Source: Actinomyces massiliensis 4401292
GTDB lineage: Bacteria; Actinomycetota; Actinomycetes; Actinomycetales; Actinomycetaceae
Assembly: GCF_000269805.1 (NCBI RefSeq)
Contig: NZ_JH711483.1
Span: 165,261-229,260, forward strand
Length of the DNA stretch: 64,000 nt
Reading direction: 5' to 3'
The notes under the pieces were generated by a model. That model was not told the origin of the DNA. It worked only from the letters and a program-made list of their open reading frames with translations, and did not search any database. Below, piece after piece: positions 1-12,376 of the stretch; positions within the stretch are counted from its first letter, which is position 1, and each line of letters opens with the position of its first letter. A program made the position numbers and the translations under genes.

Positions 1-90
1 CGCCACGGTGTCGACATTCTCCATGTCGGGATGAGTGCATAGTTGCTAATCGATTGTCGATGCCGACGATGTCCAACGGAGGTAATTCCG

Positions 91-1731
91 TTGAGCAATC
101 CCACGATCTCTCGCCGTCACTTCGGCCTGGGAGCCGCAACATTCGCGGTGCTGCTGGCCGGTGCCTGCGGCTCCGACAGCCCCGATGGCGGCCCCAGCGC
201 CGCCTCGGACGGCCAGGGCGCCGAGAGCGGCGGCAGGCTGACGTTCGCCTACAACTCCGATGGGCCCCACAAGGACTGGGTCGAGGCCGTGTGCAACTCC
301 GTCAGCAACACGCTGGGCATCTCCATGGAGCCGCTGCCCTATGCCCAGTTCTCCGAGCTGCGCCAGCAGATCACCGACCACACGATCGTCGGGGCCTTCC
401 GCGCCGGGTGGCAGGCGGGCTACCCCTCCATGGAGGACTTCCTCGACGGCCCCTTCCAGACGAACGGGGGCGCGAACGACGCCCAGTACTCCAGCACCGC
501 GTTCGACGACCTGATGGCTCAGGCCGCCGCGGCCAAGGACGATGCGGAGTCGAACGCTCTCTACGTGAAGGCTCAGGAGCAGCTCTTCGCGGACCTGCCG
601 GCCATCCCCCTGTGGTACCAGAACGGCTTTGGGGGTTACTCCAAGAACGTCAGTGACGTGACCTTCAACTGGCAGGCCATGCCCAGCTACGAGTTCATCA
701 CCACCACGAACTCCGACGGCTTCGTGCGCGCCAACAACTCCGAGCCCCAGAACCCTCTGCTGCCCGCCAACACGAATGAGACCGGCGGCGGCCGCATCGT
801 CGATCTGATCTTCGCGGGCCTGGTCGCCTACGAGAAGGACGGCACCGTGACGAACGAGGTCGCCGAATCCATCGAGACCTCCGATAATCAGACCTTCACG
901 GTCAAGCTCAAGGACGGCTGGACCTTCTCGGACGGCACCCCGGTCACCGCCGACTCCTTCATCAAGGCCTGGAACTACGGCGCGCTGATGTCCAACGCTC
1001 AGCTGTCCAGCTACGCCTACGAGCTCATCGAGGGCTACTCCGCGGAGAAGGACTCCGAGCTGACCGGACTGGCGAAGGTCGATGATCTGACGTTCACGAT
1101 CAAGCTCACCGCCCCGGCCCACGACTTCGTCAAGCGTCTGGGGACCTCCGCCTTCTACCCACTGCCCGAATCCGCCTACGCCGACATGGCCGCCTTCGGC
1201 GAGAAGCCCATCGGCAACGGCCCCTACACCCTGACCGAGTGGGTGCACGACTCCCAGGCCGTGCTGGCCAAGAACCCCTCTTACCAGGGCGTCCGCCTGC
1301 CCAAGAACGAGGGCATCACCTTCATCTTCTACACCAGCTACGACGCGGCCTACAATGATCTGCTCTCCGACGCCGTTGACGTGATCGATGCCATTCCTGA
1401 TTCGGCCCTGGCCTCCTTCCAGGACGAGCTCGGCGAGCGGGCCGTCAATGAGCCCGGCGCCCTCATCCAGAACTTCATCATCAATGTCAATGCCGAGCAC
1501 TGGAAGATGGACGACGAGGGCCGTGCCCGGCGGGCGGCGCTGTCCCGCGCCATCAACCGCAAGCAGATCTGCGACACCCTGTTCTACGACACCCGCACAC
1601 CCGCATCGGACTTCACCAGTCCCACCATCCCCGGGTGGAAGGACTCCGTGGCGGGCAACGAGGTCCTCCAGTTCGATGAGGCCGAGGCCAAGCGCCTGTG
1701 GGACCAGGCGGAGGCCATCTCCTCGTACTGA
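91..1731 (+). CDS. Circularly permuted peptide ABC transporter substrate-binding lipoprotein (family 5)
   Basis: Binds peptides or a similar solute outside the membrane and delivers it to the permeases encoded downstream. A TTG start at 91 follows GGAGGT (78-83) with 7-nt spacing. It gives a 546-aa protein opening with a twin-Arg-like ISRRHFGLG and lipobox LAGAC (Cys26). After a Ser/Asp/Gly linker (27-48) comes a segment (about 49-207) with hallmarks of the C-terminal part of OppA/DppA proteins: RLTFAYNSDGPHKDW, GWQAGYPS, LPAIPLWYQN. Only then, from about residue 208, comes the usual N-terminal part: FVRANNSEPQNP, WTFSDGTPVTADSF, IGNGPYTLTEW. The protein stops after FDEAEAKRLWDQAEAISSY, exactly where RLTFAYN would normally follow. 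The segment order is therefore C-then-N, fully in frame. Family assignment is firm; whether the permutation is biological or an assembly error cannot be decided from sequence. Confidence 0.9.
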   Translation: MSNPTISRRHFGLGAATFAVLLAGACGSDSPDGGPSAASDGQGAESGGRLTFAYNSDGPHKDWVEAVCNSVSNTLGISMEPLPYAQFSELRQQITDHTIVGAFRAGWQAGYPSMEDFLDGPFQTNGGANDAQYSSTAFDDLMAQAAAAKDDAESNALYVKAQEQLFADLPAIPLWYQNGFGGYSKNVSDVTFNWQAMPSYEFITTTNSDGFVRANNSEPQNPLLPANTNETGGGRIVDLIFAGLVAYEKDGTVTNEVAESIETSDNQTFTVKLKDGWTFSDGTPVTADSFIKAWNYGALMSNAQLSSYAYELIEGYSAEKDSELTGLAKVDDLTFTIKLTAPAHDFVKRLGTSAFYPLPESAYADMAAFGEKPIGNGPYTLTEWVHDSQAVLAKNPSYQGVRLPKNEGITFIFYTSYDAAYNDLLSDAVDVIDAIPDSALASFQDELGERAVNEPGALIQNFIINVNAEHWKMDDEGRARRAALSRAINRKQICDTLFYDTRTPASDFTSPTIPGWKDSVAGNEVLQFDEAEAKRLWDQAEAISSY

Positions 1732-1823: not shown

Positions 1824-1945
1824 TCCGGCGCGACGGTGCTCCAGCTAACCCGGGAAACCGCCGCCGCACCGGGCGCCGTGCCTGAACGAGAGCCCCCGGA
1901 ACCCTCTACGTTCGTCCGTTCCCATCCTGCTCTAAGGAGATGCCG

Positions 1946-2875
1946 ATGCTCCGCTACGCCGGACGCAGGCTTCTGCAGATGATCCCCGTGTTCTTCGGGG
2001 CCACGCTGCTCATCTACGCCATGGTCTTCGCCCTGCCGGGCGATCCTGTCGCCGCCATGGGCGGTGAGCGCGCCCTGAACCCCGATCTTCAGGCTCAGAT
2101 ACGCGCCCAGTACAACCTGGATCAGCCCTTCCTCGTCCAGTACTTCCTGTTCCTCAAGGGGCTGGTGACCTTCGACCTGGGCACCACCATTCGCGGGTCC
2201 AGGCCGATCGTCGATGTGCTCGCCGGCGCCTATCCGGTCACGATCAAGCTCGCCCTCATGGCGCTCGTCTTCGAAGCGGTGGCGGGCGTCGGCATCGGGC
2301 TCTTCGCCGGCATGCGCAAGGGCGGGATCTTCGACGCCACGGTGCTGATCCTGTCCCTCGTGGTCATCGCCGTCCCGACCTTCGTCATCGGCTTCCTCCT
2401 GCAGTTCTTCATCGGCGTCAAGCTCGGATGGCTGCCGACGACGGCCGGAGGCTCTCCGGGGTTCAAGGAACTGCTCATGCCCGCGATCGTGCTCGGGGCG
2501 GTCTCCCTGGCCTACGTCCTGCGCCTGACGCGCACGGAGGTGGGGGAGAATCTGTCGGCCGACCATGTCCGCATGGCGCGCGCCAAGGGCCTATCGAGCC
2601 GTCGGGTCATGGTCGTCCACGTCCTGCGCAACTCGCTGGTGCCGGTCGTCACCTTCCTCGGCGCGGATCTGGGCGCGCTCATGGGCGGAGCCATCGTGAC
2701 CGAGGGGATCTTCAATATCGACGGCGTGGGCGGCACCCTCTACAAGGCCATCATCAATGGGGAGGGTCCCACGGTCGTCGCCTTCACGACGGTGCTCATC
2801 CTGGTGTTCATCATCTCCAATCTGATCGTTGACCTTCTGTACGCAGCCCTGGACCCGAGGATCCGCTATGCCTGA
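1946..2875 (+). CDS. Peptide/nickel-type ABC transporter permease (DppB/OppB family)
   Basis: Inner-membrane subunit (309 aa) that forms the channel with the next gene product. It begins MLRYAGRRLLQMIPV, the usual DppB opening, with about six membrane segments and the EAA loop region around RMARAKGLSSRRVMVVHV. An in-frame ATG at 1940 is only two codons earlier, but AAGGAG (1934-1939) abuts it; the second ATG at 1946 has proper spacing and matches the family start. Its stop overlaps the next start in ATGCCTGA, indicating translational coupling. Confidence 0.93.
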   Translation: MLRYAGRRLLQMIPVFFGATLLIYAMVFALPGDPVAAMGGERALNPDLQAQIRAQYNLDQPFLVQYFLFLKGLVTFDLGTTIRGSRPIVDVLAGAYPVTIKLALMALVFEAVAGVGIGLFAGMRKGGIFDATVLILSLVVIAVPTFVIGFLLQFFIGVKLGWLPTTAGGSPGFKELLMPAIVLGAVSLAYVLRLTRTEVGENLSADHVRMARAKGLSSRRVMVVHVLRNSLVPVVTFLGADLGALMGGAIVTEGIFNIDGVGGTLYKAIINGEGPTVVAFTTVLILVFIISNLIVDLLYAALDPRIRYA

Positions 2876-4022
2876 CAACCTCGACATTCCCGACAGCACT
2901 GAGAGCGCTGACAACACCGACAGCGCCGACAGCTCCGAGAGCACTGACAACGCCGACAGCACTGAGAGCACTGAGGGACAGGACCAGAAGCCGCTCGAGG
3001 CTCAGACCCACGAGCAGCCCGAGCCTGAGGCTCGGTGGCCTCGGCCGTCCGACGGCCCCCGCGCCACCGGTGCCACCGGTGCAACCGCTGTCCGTATCGG
3101 GCAGGAGCACTTCGTCGCCGATACCGATGAGCAGGGGCTGGGCGCGGTCGATGCCGTCGCCGACGACTCCGCCCCCTCCTCGATGTGGGGGGAGGCGTGG
3201 AAGCAGCTGCGCCGTCGCCCCATCTTCTGGGTCTCCGCCCTGCTCATCGCCGTCGCCGTCCTGCTCGCCGTGGCCCCCGGACTGATCGCCCGCGCCACGC
3301 CCACCTACTGCCAGCTCAACAACTCCTACGGACCTCCGACCGTCCAGCACCCCTTCGGCTTCGACCGGCAGGGCTGCGACATCTTCGCCCGGACCATCTA
3401 CGGCGCCCGCGCGTCGGTGACCGTGGGCGTGCTCACGACGCTCCTGGTCACGCTGCTGGGCGGACTCATCGGCGCTCTCGCCGGGTTCTTCGGGGGCTTC
3501 TTCGACGCGCTGCTCTCGCGCATCACCGACGTGTTCTTCGCCGTGCCCTTCGTGCTGGCCGCGATCGTCGTCATGCAGATGTTCAAGGGCAGGTCCTCCA
3601 TCCTGACCGTCGTCGCCGTCCTGGCGCTGTTCGGATGGCCGCAGATCGCCCGCATCACCCGGGGCGCGGTCATGAGTGTCAAGAACGAGGACTTCGTGAC
3701 CGCCTCGGTCTCGCTCGGCAGCGGACGGCTCGCCATCCTGCTGCGCCATGTCCTGCCGAATGCCGCCGCTCCGATCATCGTCACCGCCACCGTCGAGCTC
3801 GGCATCTTCATCGTCGCCGAGGCGACGCTGTCCTTCCTCGGGATCGGGCTGCCGGCCTCGGTGGTCTCCTGGGGTGCGGACATCTCCACGGCCAACGTGG
3901 CGCTGCGCGACCACATCTCCGTCCTGTTGTACCCCGCGGGCGCTCTCGCGCTCACCGTGCTCGGCTTCGTCATGATGGGCGATGTGGTGCGGGACGCCCT
4001 CGATCCGAAGGCTCGCAAGTGA
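2868..4022 (+). CDS. Peptide ABC transporter permease (DppC/OppC family) with long acidic N-terminal extension
   Basis: Second channel subunit (384 aa). ATG 2868 overlaps the previous stop. Residues 1 to about 110 are hydrophilic and low-complexity, with Ser/Asp/Thr/Asn repeats such as DNTDSADSSESTDNADSTES. The first membrane helix begins near residue 119 (PIFWVSALLIAVAVLL). The DppC core is intact, with the EAA-type segment VTASVSLGSGRLAILLRHV and the closing MMGDVVRDALDPKARK. Usual DppC proteins have a cytosolic N-terminus of 20-40 residues, so the extension is an oddity of this lineage. Its stop overlaps the next start in GTGA. Confidence 0.93.
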   Translation: MPDNLDIPDSTESADNTDSADSSESTDNADSTESTEGQDQKPLEAQTHEQPEPEARWPRPSDGPRATGATGATAVRIGQEHFVADTDEQGLGAVDAVADDSAPSSMWGEAWKQLRRRPIFWVSALLIAVAVLLAVAPGLIARATPTYCQLNNSYGPPTVQHPFGFDRQGCDIFARTIYGARASVTVGVLTTLLVTLLGGLIGALAGFFGGFFDALLSRITDVFFAVPFVLAAIVVMQMFKGRSSILTVVAVLALFGWPQIARITRGAVMSVKNEDFVTASVSLGSGRLAILLRHVLPNAAAPIIVTATVELGIFIVAEATLSFLGIGLPASVVSWGADISTANVALRDHISVLLYPAGALALTVLGFVMMGDVVRDALDPKARK

Positions 4023-5884
4023 CTACCGACAACACCGCCGTTGATGCTTCTGAGGCTTCTGCCGCCTCCGCTTCTGCCGCTGAAGACTTTGCGCCCGCTG
4101 AAGCGCCGCTGCTGCGCATTGAGAATCTCGAGGTGGCCTTTCGCTCCTCGACCGGGATGGTTCCGGCCGTTCGCCAGGCCAATCTGACGATCTACCCCGG
4201 GCAGAGCGTGGCCATCGTCGGGGAGTCGGGCTCTGGGAAGACCACCCTGGCCAATGCCGTCATCGGCCTGCTGCCGGGGACTGGGCGGGTGACCGGGGGT
4301 CGCATCCTGTTCGATGGCGAGGACATCGCGCACGCCTCCGACAAGCAGATGCAGCGTCTGCGCGGCAGCGAGATCGGATTGGTCCCCCAGGACCCCATGA
4401 CCAATCTCAACCCGGTGTGGTCCATCGGCTTCCAGGTTCGTGAGGCGCTGCGCGCCAACGGGCTGGCGGGGGTGGCGGATGACCGTCTCGCCAGGCTCGC
4501 CGCCGGGCAGGAGGCCCCGGATGACTCCGACGTCTCGGATGGGGCCTCTTCGGAGGGATCGGGGGGATCGAGAGGGCAGGGCCAGAGCCGGATCGCCACC
4601 GCCGAGCAGGTGGCGCTTCTGCTCGAGGACGCGGGACTCCCCGACGCCGCCCGACGCGCCAAGCAGTATCCGCACGAGTTCTCCGGAGGCATGCGGCAGC
4701 GCGCCCTGATCGCCATCGGCCTGGCGGCGCGCCCCCGGCTGCTCATCGCCGATGAGCCGACCAGCGCCCTGGACGTCACCGTCCAGCGTCGCATTCTGGA
4801 CCACCTCGGGCGCCTCATCCACGAGCTGGGAACGGCGATGCTCTTCGTGACCCACGACCTCGGCCTGGCGGCGGAGCGGGCCGAGCACGTCGTCGTCATG
4901 CACCGCGGCCGCATCGTGGAGTCCGGGCCGAGTCTGGACGTGCTCCAGAACCCGCGCCACCCCTACACCCGCCGACTCGTCGAGGCGGCGCCGTCGCTGG
5001 CCTCTCAGCGCATCGAGGCGGCCCACGCCGAGGGCATCCAGGTCGCGGAGGACGAACTGGGCGTTCACGAGATCGCGAAGGACACTCCCGAGATCCTGCG
5101 GGTCGAGCATCTGACCAAGGTTTTCGACGTGCGCGGCGCCAAGGGCGCGGACGCGCATATCCGGGCCGTTGACGACGTCACCTTCGGAGTGCTCCGAGGC
5201 ACGACGACGGCGCTCGTCGGCGAGTCCGGCTCGGGCAAGTCCACGGTGGCGAACATCGTCCTCAATCTGATCGATCCCACCGAGGGCAAGGTCTTCCACA
5301 ACGGCGTCGACCTGTCGACTCTGGGACCCAAGCAGCTGTTCGAGCTGCGGCGCATCATGCAGCCGGTGTTCCAGAACCCCTATGGCTCCCTGGATCCGAT
5401 GTACTCCATCTACCGGATCATTGAGGAGCCGTTGCGGGTGCACGATGTGGGAGGTGGTCAGGAGCGCAGTGAGCGCGTCGCCGAGCTTCTCGACATGGTC
5501 GCCCTGCCCCGCTCGGCCATGCGGCGCTACCCCAATGAGCTCTCCGGGGGCCAGCGCCAGCGCGTGGCCATCGCCCGGGCTCTGGCCCTGAGGCCCGAGA
5601 TCGTGGTGCTGGACGAGGCCGTCTCCGCCCTCGACGTGCTCGTCCAGGCGCAGATCCTGCGACTGCTGGCGGAGCTTCAGCGAGAGCTGGACCTGACCTA
5701 CCTCTTCATCACCCACGACCTGGCGGTCGTGCGGCAGATCGCGGACGACGTCGTGGTCATGGAGAAGGGGCGGGTGGTCGAGTCCGGCCATGCGGATGAC
5801 TTGTTCGCCCACCCGCGCGAGACCTACACCCGCGAGCTGATCGACGCCGTTCCCGGCTCCAGAATCGCGCTGTACGGGGCGTGA
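4019..5884 (+). CDS. Fused dual ATP-binding protein of peptide ABC transporter (DppD-DppF type)
   Basis: Energises the transporter encoded upstream. The 621-aa protein holds two complete ABC cassettes that are often separate genes. Cassette 1 has Walker A GESGSGKTT (about 68-76), signature FSGGMRQRALIA and Walker B LLIADEPTSALD. Cassette 2 has Walker A GESGSGKST, signature LSGGQRQRVAIA and Walker B EIVVLDEAVSALD. Both contain the family insert FVTHDLGLAAE / FITHDLAVVRQ. A Gly/Ser/Asp-rich insert follows REALRANGLAG in cassette 1. The start is GTG 4019, overlapping the permease stop by four bases; a longer open frame upstream is only a shadow of that permease gene. Confidence 0.93.
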   Translation: MTTDNTAVDASEASAASASAAEDFAPAEAPLLRIENLEVAFRSSTGMVPAVRQANLTIYPGQSVAIVGESGSGKTTLANAVIGLLPGTGRVTGGRILFDGEDIAHASDKQMQRLRGSEIGLVPQDPMTNLNPVWSIGFQVREALRANGLAGVADDRLARLAAGQEAPDDSDVSDGASSEGSGGSRGQGQSRIATAEQVALLLEDAGLPDAARRAKQYPHEFSGGMRQRALIAIGLAARPRLLIADEPTSALDVTVQRRILDHLGRLIHELGTAMLFVTHDLGLAAERAEHVVVMHRGRIVESGPSLDVLQNPRHPYTRRLVEAAPSLASQRIEAAHAEGIQVAEDELGVHEIAKDTPEILRVEHLTKVFDVRGAKGADAHIRAVDDVTFGVLRGTTTALVGESGSGKSTVANIVLNLIDPTEGKVFHNGVDLSTLGPKQLFELRRIMQPVFQNPYGSLDPMYSIYRIIEEPLRVHDVGGGQERSERVAELLDMVALPRSAMRRYPNELSGGQRQRVAIARALALRPEIVVLDEAVSALDVLVQAQILRLLAELQRELDLTYLFITHDLAVVRQIADDVVVMEKGRVVESGHADDLFAHPRETYTRELIDAVPGSRIALYGA

Positions 5885-6476: not shown

Positions 6477-8399
6477 ATGACTGTGCGCCAGGATCTGCGC
6501 AACGTCGCCATCGTCGCCCATGTCGACCACGGCAAGACCACCCTCGTCGACGCGATGCTCTGGGAGGCGGGCGCTTTCGGCGCCCGCGCCACCGAGGAGA
6601 CCACCGGCGAGCGCGTCATGGACTCCGGCGAGCTCGAGCGCGAGAAGGGCATCACCATTCTCGCCAAGAACACGGCCGTCCACTACCGCGGTCCTGCGGC
6701 CGTGGCCGCCGGGCTCCCCGAGGGCATCACCATCAACGTCATCGATACTCCCGGGCACGCCGATTTCGGCGGTGAGGTCGAGCGTGGCCTGTCCATGGTG
6801 GACGGCGTCGTCCTGCTCGTGGACGCCTCGGAGGGGCCCCTGCCCCAGACGCGCTTCGTGCTGCGCAAGGCCCTGGCCGCCAATCTGCCGGTCATCCTCG
6901 TGGTCAACAAGGTGGATCGCCCCGACTCGCGCATCAGCGAGGTCGTCTCCGAGTCCACCGATCTGCTGCTCTCGCTGGCCTCCGACCTGTCCGACGAGCA
7001 GCCCGACATCGACTTGGAGGCCGTCCTCGACCTCCCCGTCATCTACGCCTCCGCCAAGGCCCGCCGTGCCGACACCGCCCAGCCCGCCGACGGCGAGCTG
7101 CCGGCCAGTGAGGATCTCGAGCCGTTCTTCCGCACCATCATCGAGCGCATCCCCGGCCCCTCCTACGATGAGGGAGCTCCTCTTCAGGCGCATGTCACCA
7201 ACCTGGACGCCTCGCCCTTCCTCGGCAGGCTGGCCCTTCTGCGCATCCACAATGGCGCTCTGCACAAGGGGCAGACCGTGTCGTGGGCCCGCCATGACGG
7301 ATCCCTGTCCACAGCGCGAGTCTCCGAGCTGCTCATCACCGAGGGTTTGGACCGCCGGCCCGCCGAGGAGGCCCATGCCGGAGATATCGTCGCCATCGCC
7401 GGTATTGAGAACATCACCATCGGAGAGTCCCTGGTGGACCCCGACGACCCGCGTCCGCTGCCGCTGATCACGGTGGATGACCCGGCCATCTCGATGACCA
7501 TCGGCATCAACACCTCTCCCATGGCCGGGCGTACCAAGGGGGCCAAGGTCACAGCCCGTCAGGTCAAGGACCGCCTGGATCGCGAGCTGGTCGGCAATGT
7601 CTCCTTGCGCGTGCTGTCCGCCGGACGCCCTGACGCATGGGAGGTCCAGGGGCGCGGCGAGTTGGCCCTGGCGATCCTGGTCGAGCAGATGCGTCGCGAG
7701 GGCTTCGAGCTGACTGTCGGCAAGCCGCAGGTCGTCACCCGCACGATCGATGGCAGGCGGCATGAGCCGGTCGAGCGCACGACCATCGACGTTCCCGAGG
7801 AGTACCTGGGCGCCGTCACTCAGCTCATGGCCGCCCGCAAAGGCCGCATGGAGACCATGATCAACCACGGCACCGGATGGATCCGCATGGAGTTCCTCGT
7901 CCCGGCGCGCGGTCTCATCGGATTCCGCACGCAGTTCCTCACGGAGACTCGCGGTACCGGTATCGCCTCATCCATCGCCGAGGGCTACGAGCCCTGGGCC
8001 GGTCAGATCGTGGCCCGCACCACGGGGTCGTTGGTCTCCGACCGTGCCGGGGCCGTCACCGCCTACGCCCTCATCCGCCTGCAGGACCGCGGCACGTTCT
8101 TCGTCGAGCCCGGCCAGGAGACTTACGAGGGCCAGGTCGTCGGCGAGAATCCGCGCAATGAGGACATGGACGTCAACGTCGTGCGCGAGAAGCAGCAGAC
8201 CAACATGCGCTCCGCCACGGCCGATTCTTTTGAGGGTCTGGTGCCGCCGCGTAAGCTGACCCTGGAGGAGGCTCTCGAGTTCGCCTCCGATGACGAGTGC
8301 GTTGAGGTCACTCCGGATGCGGTGCGCATCCGCAAGGTCATCCTCGACTCCCAGGAGCGTTTCAAGGACGCTGCCCGCCGCCGCCGTGCCAATGCTTGA
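6477..8399 (+). CDS. typA: Ribosome-associated GTPase TypA/BipA
   Basis: Translational GTPase of the EF-G/LepA superfamily that acts on the 50S subunit and helps ribosome assembly and stress adaptation. The 640-aa length fits the family. G1 AHVDHGKT lies at residues 14-21, followed by switch region [21 protein letters not shown]3 [14 protein letters not shown] and G4 NKVDRPDSR. The C-terminal half shows TypA-specific [25 protein letters not shown] and ETRGTG. ATG 6477 is chosen over GTG 6468 because GGAAGAA (6461-6467) touches the GTG but is nine bases from the ATG. The downstream VanW gene begins at or just after this stop. Confidence 0.96.
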
Positions 8400-8413
8400 G
8401 TAAGAATGCGACT

Positions 8414-11400
8414 ATGACCGACGACGTCCCCACTTCCGACGGCACCCGTCACACCGAGGAAGCCGTGAATATCCCGCAGGTGACCGATCCCCGTACCTCC
8501 TCGCTCGAGGATATCGCCCAAGTTCTCAGCGCCAAGACGCCGGATATCGCGGATGACCCGCACCCGGAGAAAGTGGACTCCAACGGTGCGGGGCCTGCTG
8601 AGGGCTCTACGGCCGAGGCCTCATCGGCCGATGCGGATACCGATGACGCTGACACCGAGACTGAGACTGGCTCTGAATCGGACGCCGAGTCGGCCGCAGG
8701 GGATGGGCCTGAGCCTTCCGATGAGGGGGAGGCCGAGTCGGACCAGGACGATGCTCCGGTTGAGGAGGCGGAGGCTGAGGCGCCCCAGGAGGGCGATGCT
8801 GTCGTCAGGTCGGGCGACTCGAAGGATGAGCTCTCCGAGGGGGAGTCCGTCACCGATGAGGACGCGCAACCCGAAGCCGATGGTGCTGAGTCCGACTCCG
8901 ATACTGATCCCGAGTCCGAGGCTGCTGAGGGCGCTTCCGAGTCTGTGGACGATGCCGGTGAGGGCGAGTCTGCTGCCGAGTCCGAAGAGTCCTCGTCTGC
9001 GGATGAGGCCGAGGTGGTCGAGGAAGCTGCTGAGCCGGAGACTGAGGCGGCCGAGCCCGATGAGGACGAGGGGGACGGTGCTTCGGCGGAGGATTCGGAG
9101 GTGACCGAGTCGGACGTTGAGACAGGCGAGACTGAGGAAGCTGAGTCGGTCGAGGCTGAGGCGGATGAGTCTCAGGTCGGTGAGGGCGAGTCTGCTGCCG
9201 ACTCCGGAGAGTCCTCGTCTGCGGATGAGGCCGAGGTGGTCGAGGAAGCTGCTGAGCCGGAGACTGAGGCGACCGAGTCGGATGAGGACGAGGAGGACGG
9301 TGCTTCGGCGGAGGATTCGGAGGTGACCGAGTCAGACGTTGAGGCAGGCGAGACTGAGGAAGCTGAGTCGGTCGAGGCTGAGGCGGATGAGTCTCAGGTC
9401 GGTGAGGGCGAGTCTGCTGCCGACTCCGGAGAGTCCTCGTCTGCGGATGAGGGCGAGGCGGTCGAGGAAGCTGCTGAGCCGGAGACAGAGGCGGCCGAGC
9501 CCGATGAGGCCGAGGAGCACGATTCCGAGTCTGTGGACGATGCCGGTGAGGGCGAACCCACCGAGCCCGACGCGCCAAAATCATCTGAGAAGGAGAGCGA
9601 GGCATCCGAGGAGGAGCCCCAGGCCGGCCAGGCCGCCGCTGACGGGACCCCGCAGGACGGCTCCGCGGTGGAGGCTGAAGAGGCGGAGGCCGAAGAGGCG
9701 GGGGCGGAGTCGAAGGATGCCGTCGCGGCTCCGGTCGGCGAGGCCCTGGCCGCCATGTCGGCGCCCACACCGGCCGAAGCCCCTCAGTCCGACGAGACCT
9801 TCGGGTCCGTGGACGATCAGCCCGGTGCCGCTACCGACGAGGCTGAAGCCGATGAAGCTGATGAGTCTGAAGCTGACGAGGCCGATGCGGCTGGGGCTGC
9901 CTCTGGAGACGATGCCGCGCAGAGCGAGCCGGCCAACGGAGAGGATTCTCCGGAGGGGGCCGCCGAGGGCGAGCCCGCCGTCGACGAGGATGAGAATGCG
10001 CAGTCCGAGCCCGAGCCCGCTGATGGCGAGAGCACGGATTCCGAACCCGAGGACGAGACCGACGAGACCGCTGAAGAGTCCGCATCCGTTGATGAGGAGG
10101 CTTCGCAGGACGGCTCCGCGGTGGAGGCTGAAGAGGTGGAGGCCGAAGAGGCGGGGGCGGAGTCGAAGGATGCCGTCGCGGCTCCGGTCGGCGAGGCCCT
10201 GGCCGCCATGTCGGCGCCCACACCGGCCGAAGCGCTTCAGCCCGACGAGATCCCCGCCCCCGCAGGCGATGAGCCCGCTGCAGACGAGGCCGCCCGCACC
10301 GCTGGTGCTTCCGACTCGTCCGGCTCTTCCGACGGCGCCGCCCCCGCGGCAGCCGCCGACTCCACTTCCGCCAAGGTGAAAGCGGCTCTCGCCAAAGCCA
10401 AGGCGGCATTGACGGAGCTGCTGCACGGTCGCGGGCCGGGCCGCGGCATGATGGCCTGCATCATCGGCCTGGGTCTGCTGGTCCTGATCTGGGGAGGCGC
10501 CGCCATCGCCACCACCCAGCACATCTTCGCCGGATCGACCGTTTCCGGCGTCGATGTCGGAGATATGAGTCCCGCTGAGGCGCGTCAAGCGGTGGACGAC
10601 CAGGTCGGCGCCGCCCTGACGTATCCCGTCATCCTCACCGTCAACGATTCCACCGATACGCTCGTGCCCGCCGACTCCGGTGTGGCCGTGGACGCCGACG
10701 CCAGCGTTGACCGTCTGGTCGGCCCCACCCTCAACCCGGTGACGCTCATCAAGCGTCTGAGCGGCAGCGATGTCGACGCCGTCACCACCGTTGACACCGA
10801 AGCGCTCACCGCCGCTCTCAATGAGCGGCTCGACACGCTCGCCACCGGTACGGCCGACGCCGTCGTCACCCTCGACGGCACAACCCCCGTTGTGACCCCG
10901 GGCGCCACTGGCACTGGCCTGGACGTCGACGCCTCCGTGAAGTCCTTAAGCGCGGACTGGCCCCTGGGGCAGGAGGCCATCGCCCTGGCCAGCGGCACCG
11001 CGAAGCCGGCGATCACCGACGAGGACGCCCAGACATTCGTCGATTCCGTCCTCACGCCCCTGCTCGCGGACGACCTCACCATCACCGCCGTCGGCACGAG
11101 CGCTGAGAAGACCGCCACCGGCAAGCAGCTCGTCCTCTCGCCCGAGCAGATCGCGAGTCTGACCACCATCTCGACCACCGATGGCGAGCTCTCCGCCGTC
11201 CTCGACTCCCAGCGGCTTCACGACGACCTCATCGCCGCCATGGGGCCGATCGAGACGCAGGCCGTCAATGCGGGCTGGACGATCGACGGTTCCGCGACCG
11301 GTGCGGCCGGGGCCAAGCCCCAGTATGTGGCCCCGTCCTCAGGCGAGGGCATCGACATGGCGGCTCTGACCCAGCAGCTCATCGACACGGGAACCACCAA

Positions 11401-12376
11401 GTCCGCATCCGCCGACCGCACCGTCGCCATCCCCATGACCACCACTGAGCCGGACACCACCACCCCTGAGGCGGACTGGGGCATTACCGAGGTCACCGGC
11501 GAGTTCGCCACACCCTTCAACTCCGAGCCCGGCCGCGATCAGAACCTCATACGCGGCGCCGAGCAGATGAATGGTCAGGTCGTCATGTCCGGGCAGACCT
11601 TCTCCGTCGAGGAGGCGCTCGGCCCGGTGGACTACGAGCACGGCTTCACCGATGCGGGCGTCATCTCCAACGGCCAGCACGTCGATGCGCTGGGAGGCGG
11701 GCTCTCCCAGATCGGCACCACCATGTTCAACGTCGGCTTCGAGGCCGGCATGGACGATGTCGAGCACCACCCGCACTCCTACTACTTCGACCGGTACCCG
11801 GCCGGGCGCGAGGCGACGCTCTGGACCGGCCAGAAGGACGTCAAGTTCACCAACTCCACTCCCTACGCGGCGCTCATCCAGGCCTGGGTCGCCGACGGCC
11901 AGGTCCACACCCGCATCTGGTCCACGCACTACTACGACGTCTCCATCACCAGCTCCGAGCGCTACAACTACCGGCCCGTCCAGACTCTCACCCGCCCGGC
12001 GGGCTCAGGATGCCAGTCGTACTACGGCGGGAACCCGGGCTTCGACATCACTGTCACCCGCACCCGCACAGCTTCTGACAAGACCGTTCCCGACGACGTC
12101 CTGACCACCACCTACGACGCCGACAACAATATCGAGTGCACGGGGTCCGCCAAGCCCTCCCAGTCCCTCCAACCCGGATCCTCAACGACGGATCAGGGCC
12201 GCAGCAGCTGGGAGGCGGCGCCGCAGCCGATCGGCGAGGCCGATACGCCGGCCGCCGGAGGGGTGGCCGCTCAACCGCAGCCCGCTCAACCTCAGGACGC
12301 CACGGGCGCGGAAGAAAATCTGCCGAGGGCGCCGGAGGGCTCCTCGGACGGGGGCTCCCCGGCCGGAACGCCGTAG
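8414..12376 (+). CDS. VanW-family membrane protein with giant acidic repeat-rich cytoplasmic domain
   Basis: Large (1320 aa) single-pass protein. Residues 1 to about 675 are extremely Glu/Asp/Ala/Ser-rich with no basic stretches and contain two sets of long internal repeats. A short basic stretch (KVKAALAKAKAAL) precedes a membrane helix (about 679-701, IIGLGLLVLIWGGAAIA). The extracellular part has two peptidoglycan-binding-like repeats (SGVDVGDMSPAEARQAV onward), then a VanW domain (about 1020-1190) with LGGGLSQIGTTMFN and HSYYFDRYPAGREAT, then a Pro/Ala/Gln tail. VanW proteins are linked to cell-wall metabolism; the exact function is unknown. The start is uncertain: TTG 8396 overlaps the typA stop and ATG 8414 follows, and neither has a clear ribosome site. 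Confidence 0.85.
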   Translation: MTDDVPTSDGTRHTEEAVNIPQVTDPRTSSLEDIAQVLSAKTPDIADDPHPEKVDSNGAGPAEGSTAEASSADADTDDADTETETGSESDAESAAGDGPEPSDEGEAESDQDDAPVEEAEAEAPQEGDAVVRSGDSKDELSEGESVTDEDAQPEADGAESDSDTDPESEAAEGASESVDDAGEGESAAESEESSSADEAEVVEEAAEPETEAAEPDEDEGDGASAEDSEVTESDVETGETEEAESVEAEADESQVGEGESAADSGESSSADEAEVVEEAAEPETEATESDEDEEDGASAEDSEVTESDVEAGETEEAESVEAEADESQVGEGESAADSGESSSADEGEAVEEAAEPETEAAEPDEAEEHDSESVDDAGEGEPTEPDAPKSSEKESEASEEEPQAGQAAADGTPQDGSAVEAEEAEAEEAGAESKDAVAAPVGEALAAMSAPTPAEAPQSDETFGSVDDQPGAATDEAEADEADESEADEADAAGAASGDDAAQSEPANGEDSPEGAAEGEPAVDEDENAQSEPEPADGESTDSEPEDETDETAEESASVDEEASQDGSAVEAEEVEAEEAGAESKDAVAAPVGEALAAMSAPTPAEALQPDEIPAPAGDEPAADEAARTAGASDSSGSSDGAAPAAAADSTSAKVKAALAKAKAALTELLHGRGPGRGMMACIIGLGLLVLIWGGAAIATTQHIFAGSTVSGVDVGDMSPAEARQAVDDQVGAALTYPVILTVNDSTDTLVPADSGVAVDADASVDRLVGPTLNPVTLIKRLSGSDVDAVTTVDTEALTAALNERLDTLATGTADAVVTLDGTTPVVTPGATGTGLDVDASVKSLSADWPLGQEAIALASGTAKPAITDEDAQTFVDSVLTPLLADDLTITAVGTSAEKTATGKQLVLSPEQIASLTTISTTDGELSAVLDSQRLHDDLIAAMGPIETQAVNAGWTIDGSATGAAGAKPQYVAPSSGEGIDMAALTQQLIDTGTTKSASADRTVAIPMTTTEPDTTTPEADWGITEVTGEFATPFNSEPGRDQNLIRGAEQMNGQVVMSGQTFSVEEALGPVDYEHGFTDAGVISNGQHVDALGGGLSQIGTTMFNVGFEAGMDDVEHHPHSYYFDRYPAGREATLWTGQKDVKFTNSTPYAALIQAWVADGQVHTRIWSTHYYDVSITSSERYNYRPVQTLTRPAGSGCQSYYGGNPGFDITVTRTRTASDKTVPDDVLTTTYDADNNIECTGSAKPSQSLQPGSSTTDQGRSSWEAAPQPIGEADTPAAGGVAAQPQPAQPQDATGAEENLPRAPEGSSDGGSPAGTP
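8960..9508 (+). repeat. 222-bp in-frame tandem repeat inside the VanW gene (about 2.5 copies)
   Basis: Copies begin GAGGGCGAGTCTGCTGCCGA at 8960, 9182 and 9404, exactly 222 bp (74 codons) apart; the third is partial. The encoded unit starts EGESAA(D/E)S and contains EVVEEAAEPETEA and VETGETEEAESVEAEADES. Near-identity of the copies at DNA level suggests recent expansion or ongoing gene conversion. Confidence 0.9.
9651..10250 (+). repeat. Pair of about 147-bp direct repeats 453 bp apart inside the VanW gene
   Basis: Segments 9651-9797 and 10104-10250 are nearly identical, beginning CGCAGGACGGCTCCGCGGTG and encoding a Glu/Ala-rich stretch followed by SKDAVAAPVGEALAAMSAPT. The offset is 151 codons, so the frame is preserved. 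This is a second repeat family, distinct from the 222-bp unit. Confidence 0.88.

Follow-up and report, generated by a model that had tools for sequence, protein, structure and literature searches.

The dppA locus of Actinomyces massiliensis

The stretch of DNA analysed here (the window) covers 64,000 nucleotides of Actinomyces massiliensis 4401292. Close to its left end lies dppA (91..1731; 546 codons plus stop), a circularly permuted gene for the lipoprotein substrate-binding protein of a peptide ABC importer. Its single open frame starts with TTG at 91 and closes with a TGA whose last base is 1731, and a ribosome-binding site, GGAGGT (78..83), was read by eye 7 bases 5' of the TTG; these and all other features of the operon given below are on the + strand. 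The gene opens with a lipoprotein signal peptide (91..168; SRRxFG...LAGA followed by Cys), twin-arginine-like in sequence (SRRHFGLGAATFAVLLAGA before the Cys), which from the SRR motif on resembles, by eye, that of unpermuted Actinomyces dppA genes. The lipid-bearing residue was assigned by eye and by pattern to Cys 26 (166-168). A linker rich in Ser, Gly and Asp follows (169..228), most of it predicted to be disordered. The remainder consists of a segment equivalent to the C-terminal third of normal DppA (229..708), which includes the peptide-site motif GWQAGYPS, a linker of about four residues (NSDG, 709..720) leading from the normal C-terminus to the normal N-terminus, and a segment equivalent to the N-terminal two thirds of normal DppA (721..1728).

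Downstream are three genes that we take, from general knowledge of the family and from their position, to be dppB (permease subunit, 1940..2875), dppC (permease subunit, 2871..4022) and dppDF (ATPase with two nucleotide-binding domains in one chain, 4076..5884, start approximate). All three frames are open, and typA comes next. The N-terminal end of dppC (2871-2990) carries unusual repeats rich in Asp, Ser, Thr and Glu (DSTESADNTDSADSSESTDNADSTESTEG) before the permease domain. A dppB gene follows most permuted and unpermuted dppA genes: its start lies within 700 bases downstream in 40 of the 44 distinct permuted genes that have at least 1,500 bases of downstream sequence, and in 65 of 85 unpermuted genes. 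Of the four permuted exceptions, two are broken genes (L182 in G071 and L181 in G018) and two appear intact (L180 in G072 and L058 in G342); no match to dppB, dppC or dppDF was found within 4 kb downstream of either intact gene. L180, an Actinomyces gene with an intact frame, is thus apparently an orphan receptor.

The two parts of DppA are in swapped order

A phmmer search of solved structures matched the window protein to Mycobacterium tuberculosis DppA (7jls) with a full-sequence E-value of 9.7e-143. Window residues 47-206 (nucleotides 229-708) correspond to 7jls 378-537 (130.5 bits) and residues 209-545 to 7jls 28-376 (350 bits), so that the match in swapped order is far above chance. The cut in the chain falls cleanly at 7jls residue 376/378. 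No sizeable segment has been lost relative to 7jls, and a check for segments occurring twice in the window protein found none. Each part is present once, the order is rotated, a short linker connects the native ends and the new ends share one site, as in a circular permutant. The original prediction, made from the letters of the window, had read a C-part followed by an N-part at 91..1731 and an end exactly where the normal order would continue. Its coordinates proved right, and the chain does stop at an aromatic residue immediately before the point at which its own first segment begins.

Among the 60 structure matches listed of 74, we saw no solved chain with the permuted order, since the best stretch begins at query position 204 or later in all of them except 6ofq (105-177). 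SBP_bac_5 is the only Pfam family in the window protein (197.8 bits, above the curated cut-off of 32.4), and NCBIfam and structure matches are likewise to DppA/OppA-type proteins. The best Pfam stretch covers profile positions 2-276 of 368, compared with 2-366 in an unpermuted Actinomyces protein. Since Pfam still calls SBP_bac_5 on such partial coverage, the rotation is easily overlooked in annotation. Lacking the normal N-before-C order, the window protein is classed as a permuted SBP_bac_5 variant. No second copy of this dppA family, in either order, was found in the window genome; the one other match there is a 30% identical relative on contig C2.

Permuted and normal dppA within Actinomyces

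We scanned 213 genomes of the family, 49 of them listed for the genus Actinomyces, with a match limit of 1e-28. A close match was present in 34 of the 49 genus genomes, 29 with the permuted order (window included) and five with the normal one (G005, G012, G014, G017 and G064); in the other 15 there was no close dppA match at that limit. Several of the 29 are single-contig assemblies. Matches also came from 103 genomes belonging to other genera of this family, with the unpermuted pattern among the matches listed. In a separate scan, the best 80 of 130 loci were sorted by part order; its named loci are largely assemblies of the genus scan, so the two counts are not additive. Permuted genes were found there in A. 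israelii, A. gerencseriae, A. oris, A. naeslundii, A. johnsonii, A. dentalis, A. haliotis, A. gaoshouyii and A. bovis (frameshifted), and unpermuted ones in A. oricola, A. glycerinitolerans and A. ruminis.

The original prediction had proposed a search of related genomes for the same order, which found it in assemblies independent of the window's, those of A. israelii, A. gerencseriae, A. oris, A. naeslundii and A. dentalis among them. It had also held that unpermuted relatives with the same flanks would tell against a permutation. Such relatives exist: all five unpermuted genus-mates carry dppA beside the same downstream genes. They form a separate supported clade and therefore do not refute the permutation, which stands. 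The permutation in the window is natural and old, having arisen before the permuted Actinomyces clade diverged. Breakage affects some permuted copies: those of G018 and G071 are split, and those of G034, G032 and G006 are frameshifted. In the split genes (L182, 8273-9388, in G071; L181 in G018) dppA lies in pieces, with about 1.1 kb between the pieces in G071.

Permuted genes in other families and at other cut sites

A query consisting of the normal C-terminal end followed by the normal N-terminal start gives one unbroken match to any permutant with joined native ends. This junction query was run on overlapping sets: 396 genomes from the order, 394 from the class, 296 from the phylum and 35 from family f67, plus 197, 150, 199 and 18 from four families. 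Beyond Actinomyces, permutants with the same cut turned up in four further families of actinobacteria. These are f45, with Aeromicrobium among its members (G807, G988, G992 and G1053, the last being locus L054), f8 (G395, G1101, G1128, G1150, G1140, G1143, G1159 and G1098), f19, placed with Microbacterium on the tree (G276, G1273 and G1332), and f20 (G443, and G342 with three copies). The three different permuted dppA-like genes of G342 (L190, L191 and L192) lie on three contigs; in the stretches available, L190 alone matched the window dppB and dppDF, and L192 has little downstream sequence. No unpermuted match was found in the permutant genomes of the junction searches at the E-value limit used.

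Three other cut positions were represented by four genes in three genomes, each gene from one genome. In L057 (MAG Micrococcales bacterium 73-13, G1221, f19) the cut lies about 50 residues beyond the common one (query 21-131 matching 7jls 429-539, and query 120-518 matching 7jls 15-427). In L296 (G1480, f67) it lies near 7jls 311, and in L304 (G1669, f67) near 7jls 146 (query 64-452 matching 8wd9 126-512, and query 466-569 matching 8wd9 18-119). The nearest solved chain to L305, a second gene of G1480, is Escherichia coli DppA (query 117-491 matching 1dpe 121-504, and query 538-603 matching 1dpe 45-116), and its cut falls in the loop equivalent to that of L304. A permease gene is downstream of all four. 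In total, the fetched loci contain 49 distinct permuted genes (L057 included) and 144 distinct unpermuted ones, a non-random sample collected by similarity. Six plasmid records contained a single place that covered 80% or more of the query, and those listed are two-piece matches. Both the further families and the further cut positions show that the original prediction understated the permutation.

These data leave next to no probability that a normal dppA was misassembled or missequenced in the window genome. In favour of such an error, five genus-mates have dppA in the normal order next to the same genes. The error would have to coexist with the same permuted order in 29 of 49 genus genomes, single-contig ones and other named assemblies among them, and in single-contig genomes of other families (G395, G807, G988, G1150, G1159 and G1098). 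In addition, the window gene has an open frame and dN/dS values below 1. An assembly artefact is thus refuted by independent assemblies and single-contig genomes.

Number of permutation events

For the trees, both parts of each permuted protein were restored to the normal order. Three short rows (L182, L181 and L135) were dropped before the first trees, 12 of 27 Actinomyces permutants and 57 of 143 unpermuted rows were kept, and a 91-row set was obtained by adding 13 further named loci and removing nine unpermuted rows; L296, L304 and L305 stayed outside the trees. On the 91-row tree the permutants fall into six separate groups, and the starred branches force six changes. A single permutant clade appeared in none of 200 bootstrap trees of this set, whose bootstrap is unsettled, and was rejected by the AU test (dlnL 529, p-AU 7e-31). 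FastTree trees of 190 rows gave the same six groups from the N-part alone and ten from the C-part alone, which is short.

A smaller set of 50 rows included five Actinomyces permutants, four of the eight from f8, two of three from f19, three of four from f45 and three of four from f20; its starred branches force five changes. Of the ten pairwise unions of these five same-cut groups, nine were rejected, with p from 0.008 down. The exception was the union of f8 and f20, where holding the two together improved on the free tree by 2.3 log units (p 0.57); f8 and f20 may therefore share one origin. The p values are uncorrected, and that of the f19 and f20 union (0.008) would fail a Bonferroni bound for 11 tests. 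A single group of L057 and the f19 permutants was also rejected, f19 being the one group against which L057 was tested.

Signal peptides lie outside the tree data and were compared separately. Those of the f8 and f45 permutants scored 0.52 and 0.53, respectively, against unpermuted genes of their own family, versus 0.36 at most against other permutants. For the f19 permutants support is weak, with scores of 0.39 against unpermuted f19, 0.41 against L057 and 0.34 against the f8 permutants, and for f20 the comparison was uninformative, giving no signal-peptide support. In Actinomyces a signal of the form SRRxFGxGA is common to both arrangements, with a one-residue shift seen by eye that the ungapped score (0.22) misses.

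A single ancient permutation, spread by transfer or descent, whose two blocks were later rewritten by recombination with local genes while their order was kept, is an alternative that we consider unlikely. It would account for the same cut in five groups, for their short Gly-containing junction linkers (often KADG, a junction that recurs in L057 despite its different cut) and for the failure to separate f8 from f20. It requires near-total replacement of both blocks in each lineage, with the N-part alone returning the same six groups (ten from the short C-part) and with signal peptides that follow the local unpermuted genes in f8 and f45. Moreover, the other cut sites demand further events, and permuted and unpermuted copies were never found in one genome at the limits used. 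Judging from sequence comparisons, we conclude that permutation probably occurred four times or more at the common cut and three times or more elsewhere, if no reversal and no rewriting by recombination took place; gain and loss are indistinguishable in such gene-tree counts.

A bolder reading, possible yet on balance doubtful, is that permutation of membrane-tethered peptide receptors is a recurrent adaptive route in Actinomycetota, with at least seven independent events in which the normal gene was replaced in its own operon and with selection on tether position as a possible driver. If so, four or more of the events would belong to one site (Actinomyces, f45, f19 and f8, the last perhaps together with f20), and the rest to three more cut sites, of which one is found in two subfamilies. 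In the three classes cut in the C-terminal half, the tether would have moved from the N-lobe to the C-lobe, and the way in which the receptor hangs above the transporter would have been under selection.

Fold, peptide site and lipid tether

A structure prediction had been suggested along with the original prediction. AlphaFold2, run on the mature window protein with 82 aligned rows, returned a confident model (mean pLDDT 93.3, pTM 0.89), in which pLDDT is below 50 at mature residues 1-20 only and the joined native ends lie in confident sequence. Permuted DppA would therefore be predicted, on model confidence and sequence, to keep the usual two-lobed Venus-flytrap fold. It would also bind peptides and dock on DppB/DppC as normal DppA does.

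In OppA both native chain ends lie in the N-lobe. In M. tuberculosis numbering, the common cut (about 380) and those of L057 (about 432) and L296 (about 315) fall in the C-terminal half, and that of L304 in the N-terminal half; by our own count, 7jls numbering runs four below the numbering used for W442 and D445. With its new ends in the C-terminal half, the window protein would have its lipid tether hanging from the other lobe. M. tuberculosis DppA is described as consisting of two halves with a hinge helix at 250-266, and as also binding heme (PMC6751184).

Asp445 of M. tuberculosis DppA is reported as a conserved peptide-site residue, and according to the same source E. coli yielded no D445A protein (PMC6751184). 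Of the permuted rows 45 of 47 have the equivalent Asp, and of the unpermuted rows 142 of 143, which indicates that the peptide site is kept in permuted DppA as a group. The two permuted rows without it are L192 and the window protein, which has Gly at this position within GWQAGYPS (412-441). The Trp equivalent to W442 is present in 46 of 47 permuted rows, the window protein among them. Given this Gly and the fate of the D445A protein, the window DppA may have an altered ligand or be weakened.

Further along this line, the window copy could be a decaying, non-functional gene. The Gly in place of the Asp of its relatives and the broken copies in other genomes (G018 and G071; frameshifts in G034, G032 and G006) point that way. 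Decay is nevertheless improbable: the frame is intact, dppB, dppC and dppDF are open in the window, and dN/dS of the window gene is 0.31 to A. gerencseriae and 0.39 to A. israelii. More generally, dN/dS was below 1 in all 36 pairs among nine permuted Actinomyces genes (0.13 between A. oris and A. naeslundii), dS being rough owing to GC bias. In this bacterium, and apparently several times over in other branches of its phylum, a peptide-pump receptor with swapped parts still looks functional.

Mechanism

Permutation by duplication (PMC3320104), which the original prediction had inferred, fits best here. A tandem copy of dppA would first be fused in frame with the existing one, and the redundant first N-part and last C-part would then be lost; the signal peptide would stay in place during the trimming. 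The permuted gene would in this way replace the normal one in place, several times independently. We favour duplication since tandem dppA copies exist, the signal peptide is retained, and permuted and unpermuted genes did not appear together in one genome at the limits used. Tandem arrays provide the raw material: a Boudabousia locus has three unpermuted dppA genes in tandem (L088, 9008-14342), and an unpermuted array in G038 (C1:727407-740199) contains seven N-part matches.

The step of duplication and loss is inferred, as neither an intermediate nor a relic was found. GGCGGC microhomology at the linker, put forward in the original prediction as a possible route, would have acted before the permuted Actinomyces lineages separated. 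Among open reading frames of at least 380 residues in 289 loci there were no fused, double-length or half-trimmed forms. A search for relics of the lost parts in flanks of up to 3 kb around the 49 permuted genes (E 0.05) returned nothing beyond pieces of the broken genes themselves (G018 and G071) and a weak match upstream of L057. Fission and fusion, in which separate genes for the two parts were joined again in the other order, is a recognised model (PMC3320104), to which we give a low probability here: half-genes were not noticed in passing among the loci read, and tandem whole dppA copies such as the three of Boudabousia suit duplication better. Taken together, the dppA product is very probably a lipid-anchored peptide receptor of a DppABCDF-type importer and a natural circular permutant that arose in place several times.

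Relation to known systems

To our knowledge, most natural circular permutants are known as single cases with great evolutionary distances between them. For dppA, both arrangements are found among orthologues of a single genus and occupy the same place in the operon; several separate lineages and more than one cut position are involved. Orthologues that stand side by side in this way make events countable and intermediates searchable, and the effect of the tethered lobe on transport becomes testable. A rare oddity of protein evolution thus becomes a repeated natural experiment.

M. tuberculosis DppA (Rv3666c; 7jls, 6e3d and 8wd9) belongs to the same family as the window DppA over nearly its full length. 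It is described as a periplasmic lipoprotein (PMC6751184), as the window protein is predicted to be, and M. tuberculosis DppD is reported to have two consecutive nucleotide-binding domains, like the window dppDF (PMC12136057). Compared with it, the window protein keeps the peptide-site Trp, lacks the peptide-site Asp and has its parts swapped at 7jls 376/378. E. coli DppA and OppA, of cluster C, share the Pfam family SBP_bac_5 with the window DppA and are peptide receptors of ABC importers (PMC12136057); they are soluble and unpermuted, whereas the window DppA is a permuted lipoprotein.

A precedent for a permuted binding protein is TpMglB-2 (Tp0684) of Treponema pallidum and its relatives, for which a 'Cluster Bc' has been proposed (PMC4990184). 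Like the window DppA, it is a natural circular permutant of a membrane-tethered ABC ligand-binding protein, and it was shown to bind glucose with a conformational change; its authors considered that the topology is possibly an adaptation to anchoring (PMC4990184). It has the sugar-binding cluster B fold (PMC4990184), whereas the window DppA is of the cluster C, peptide-binding type. The window protein contains no cluster B (type I) sugar-binding sequence and so falls outside Cluster Bc. The permuted part of TpMglB-2 matches its normal relatives poorly (13% identity; PMC4990184), whereas both parts of the window DppA match well and the window DppA has unpermuted orthologues in its own genus. 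No mention of independent recurrence was seen for TpMglB-2 (PMC4990184). TpMglB-2 is the one natural permutant of ABC substrate-binding proteins that we recognised in the open-access literature, which leaves out most subscription-journal papers; no natural SBP_bac_5 permutant was recognised there. The saposin/swaposin pair and the transhydrogenases also have a rotated order of homologous parts and differ from the window DppA in fold and function; the transhydrogenase arrangements are said to have been fused independently (PMC3320104).

Genes near the permuted operon

In several Actinomyces loci (L038, 15714-19626; L039, L040, L046, L047 and L074) a second peptide-permease-like set lies directly after the first, with about 30% identity for DppB and about 40-48% for DppDF; typA comes next in other Actinomyces. 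In G020 (L183, 13044-14370), whose operon has a permuted dppA, about 1.3 kb interrupts the dppDF matches. Finally, the window contains at 8396-12376 an open reading frame of 1326 amino acids, with a highly acidic and repetitive N-terminal half followed by what appears by eye to be a membrane segment.
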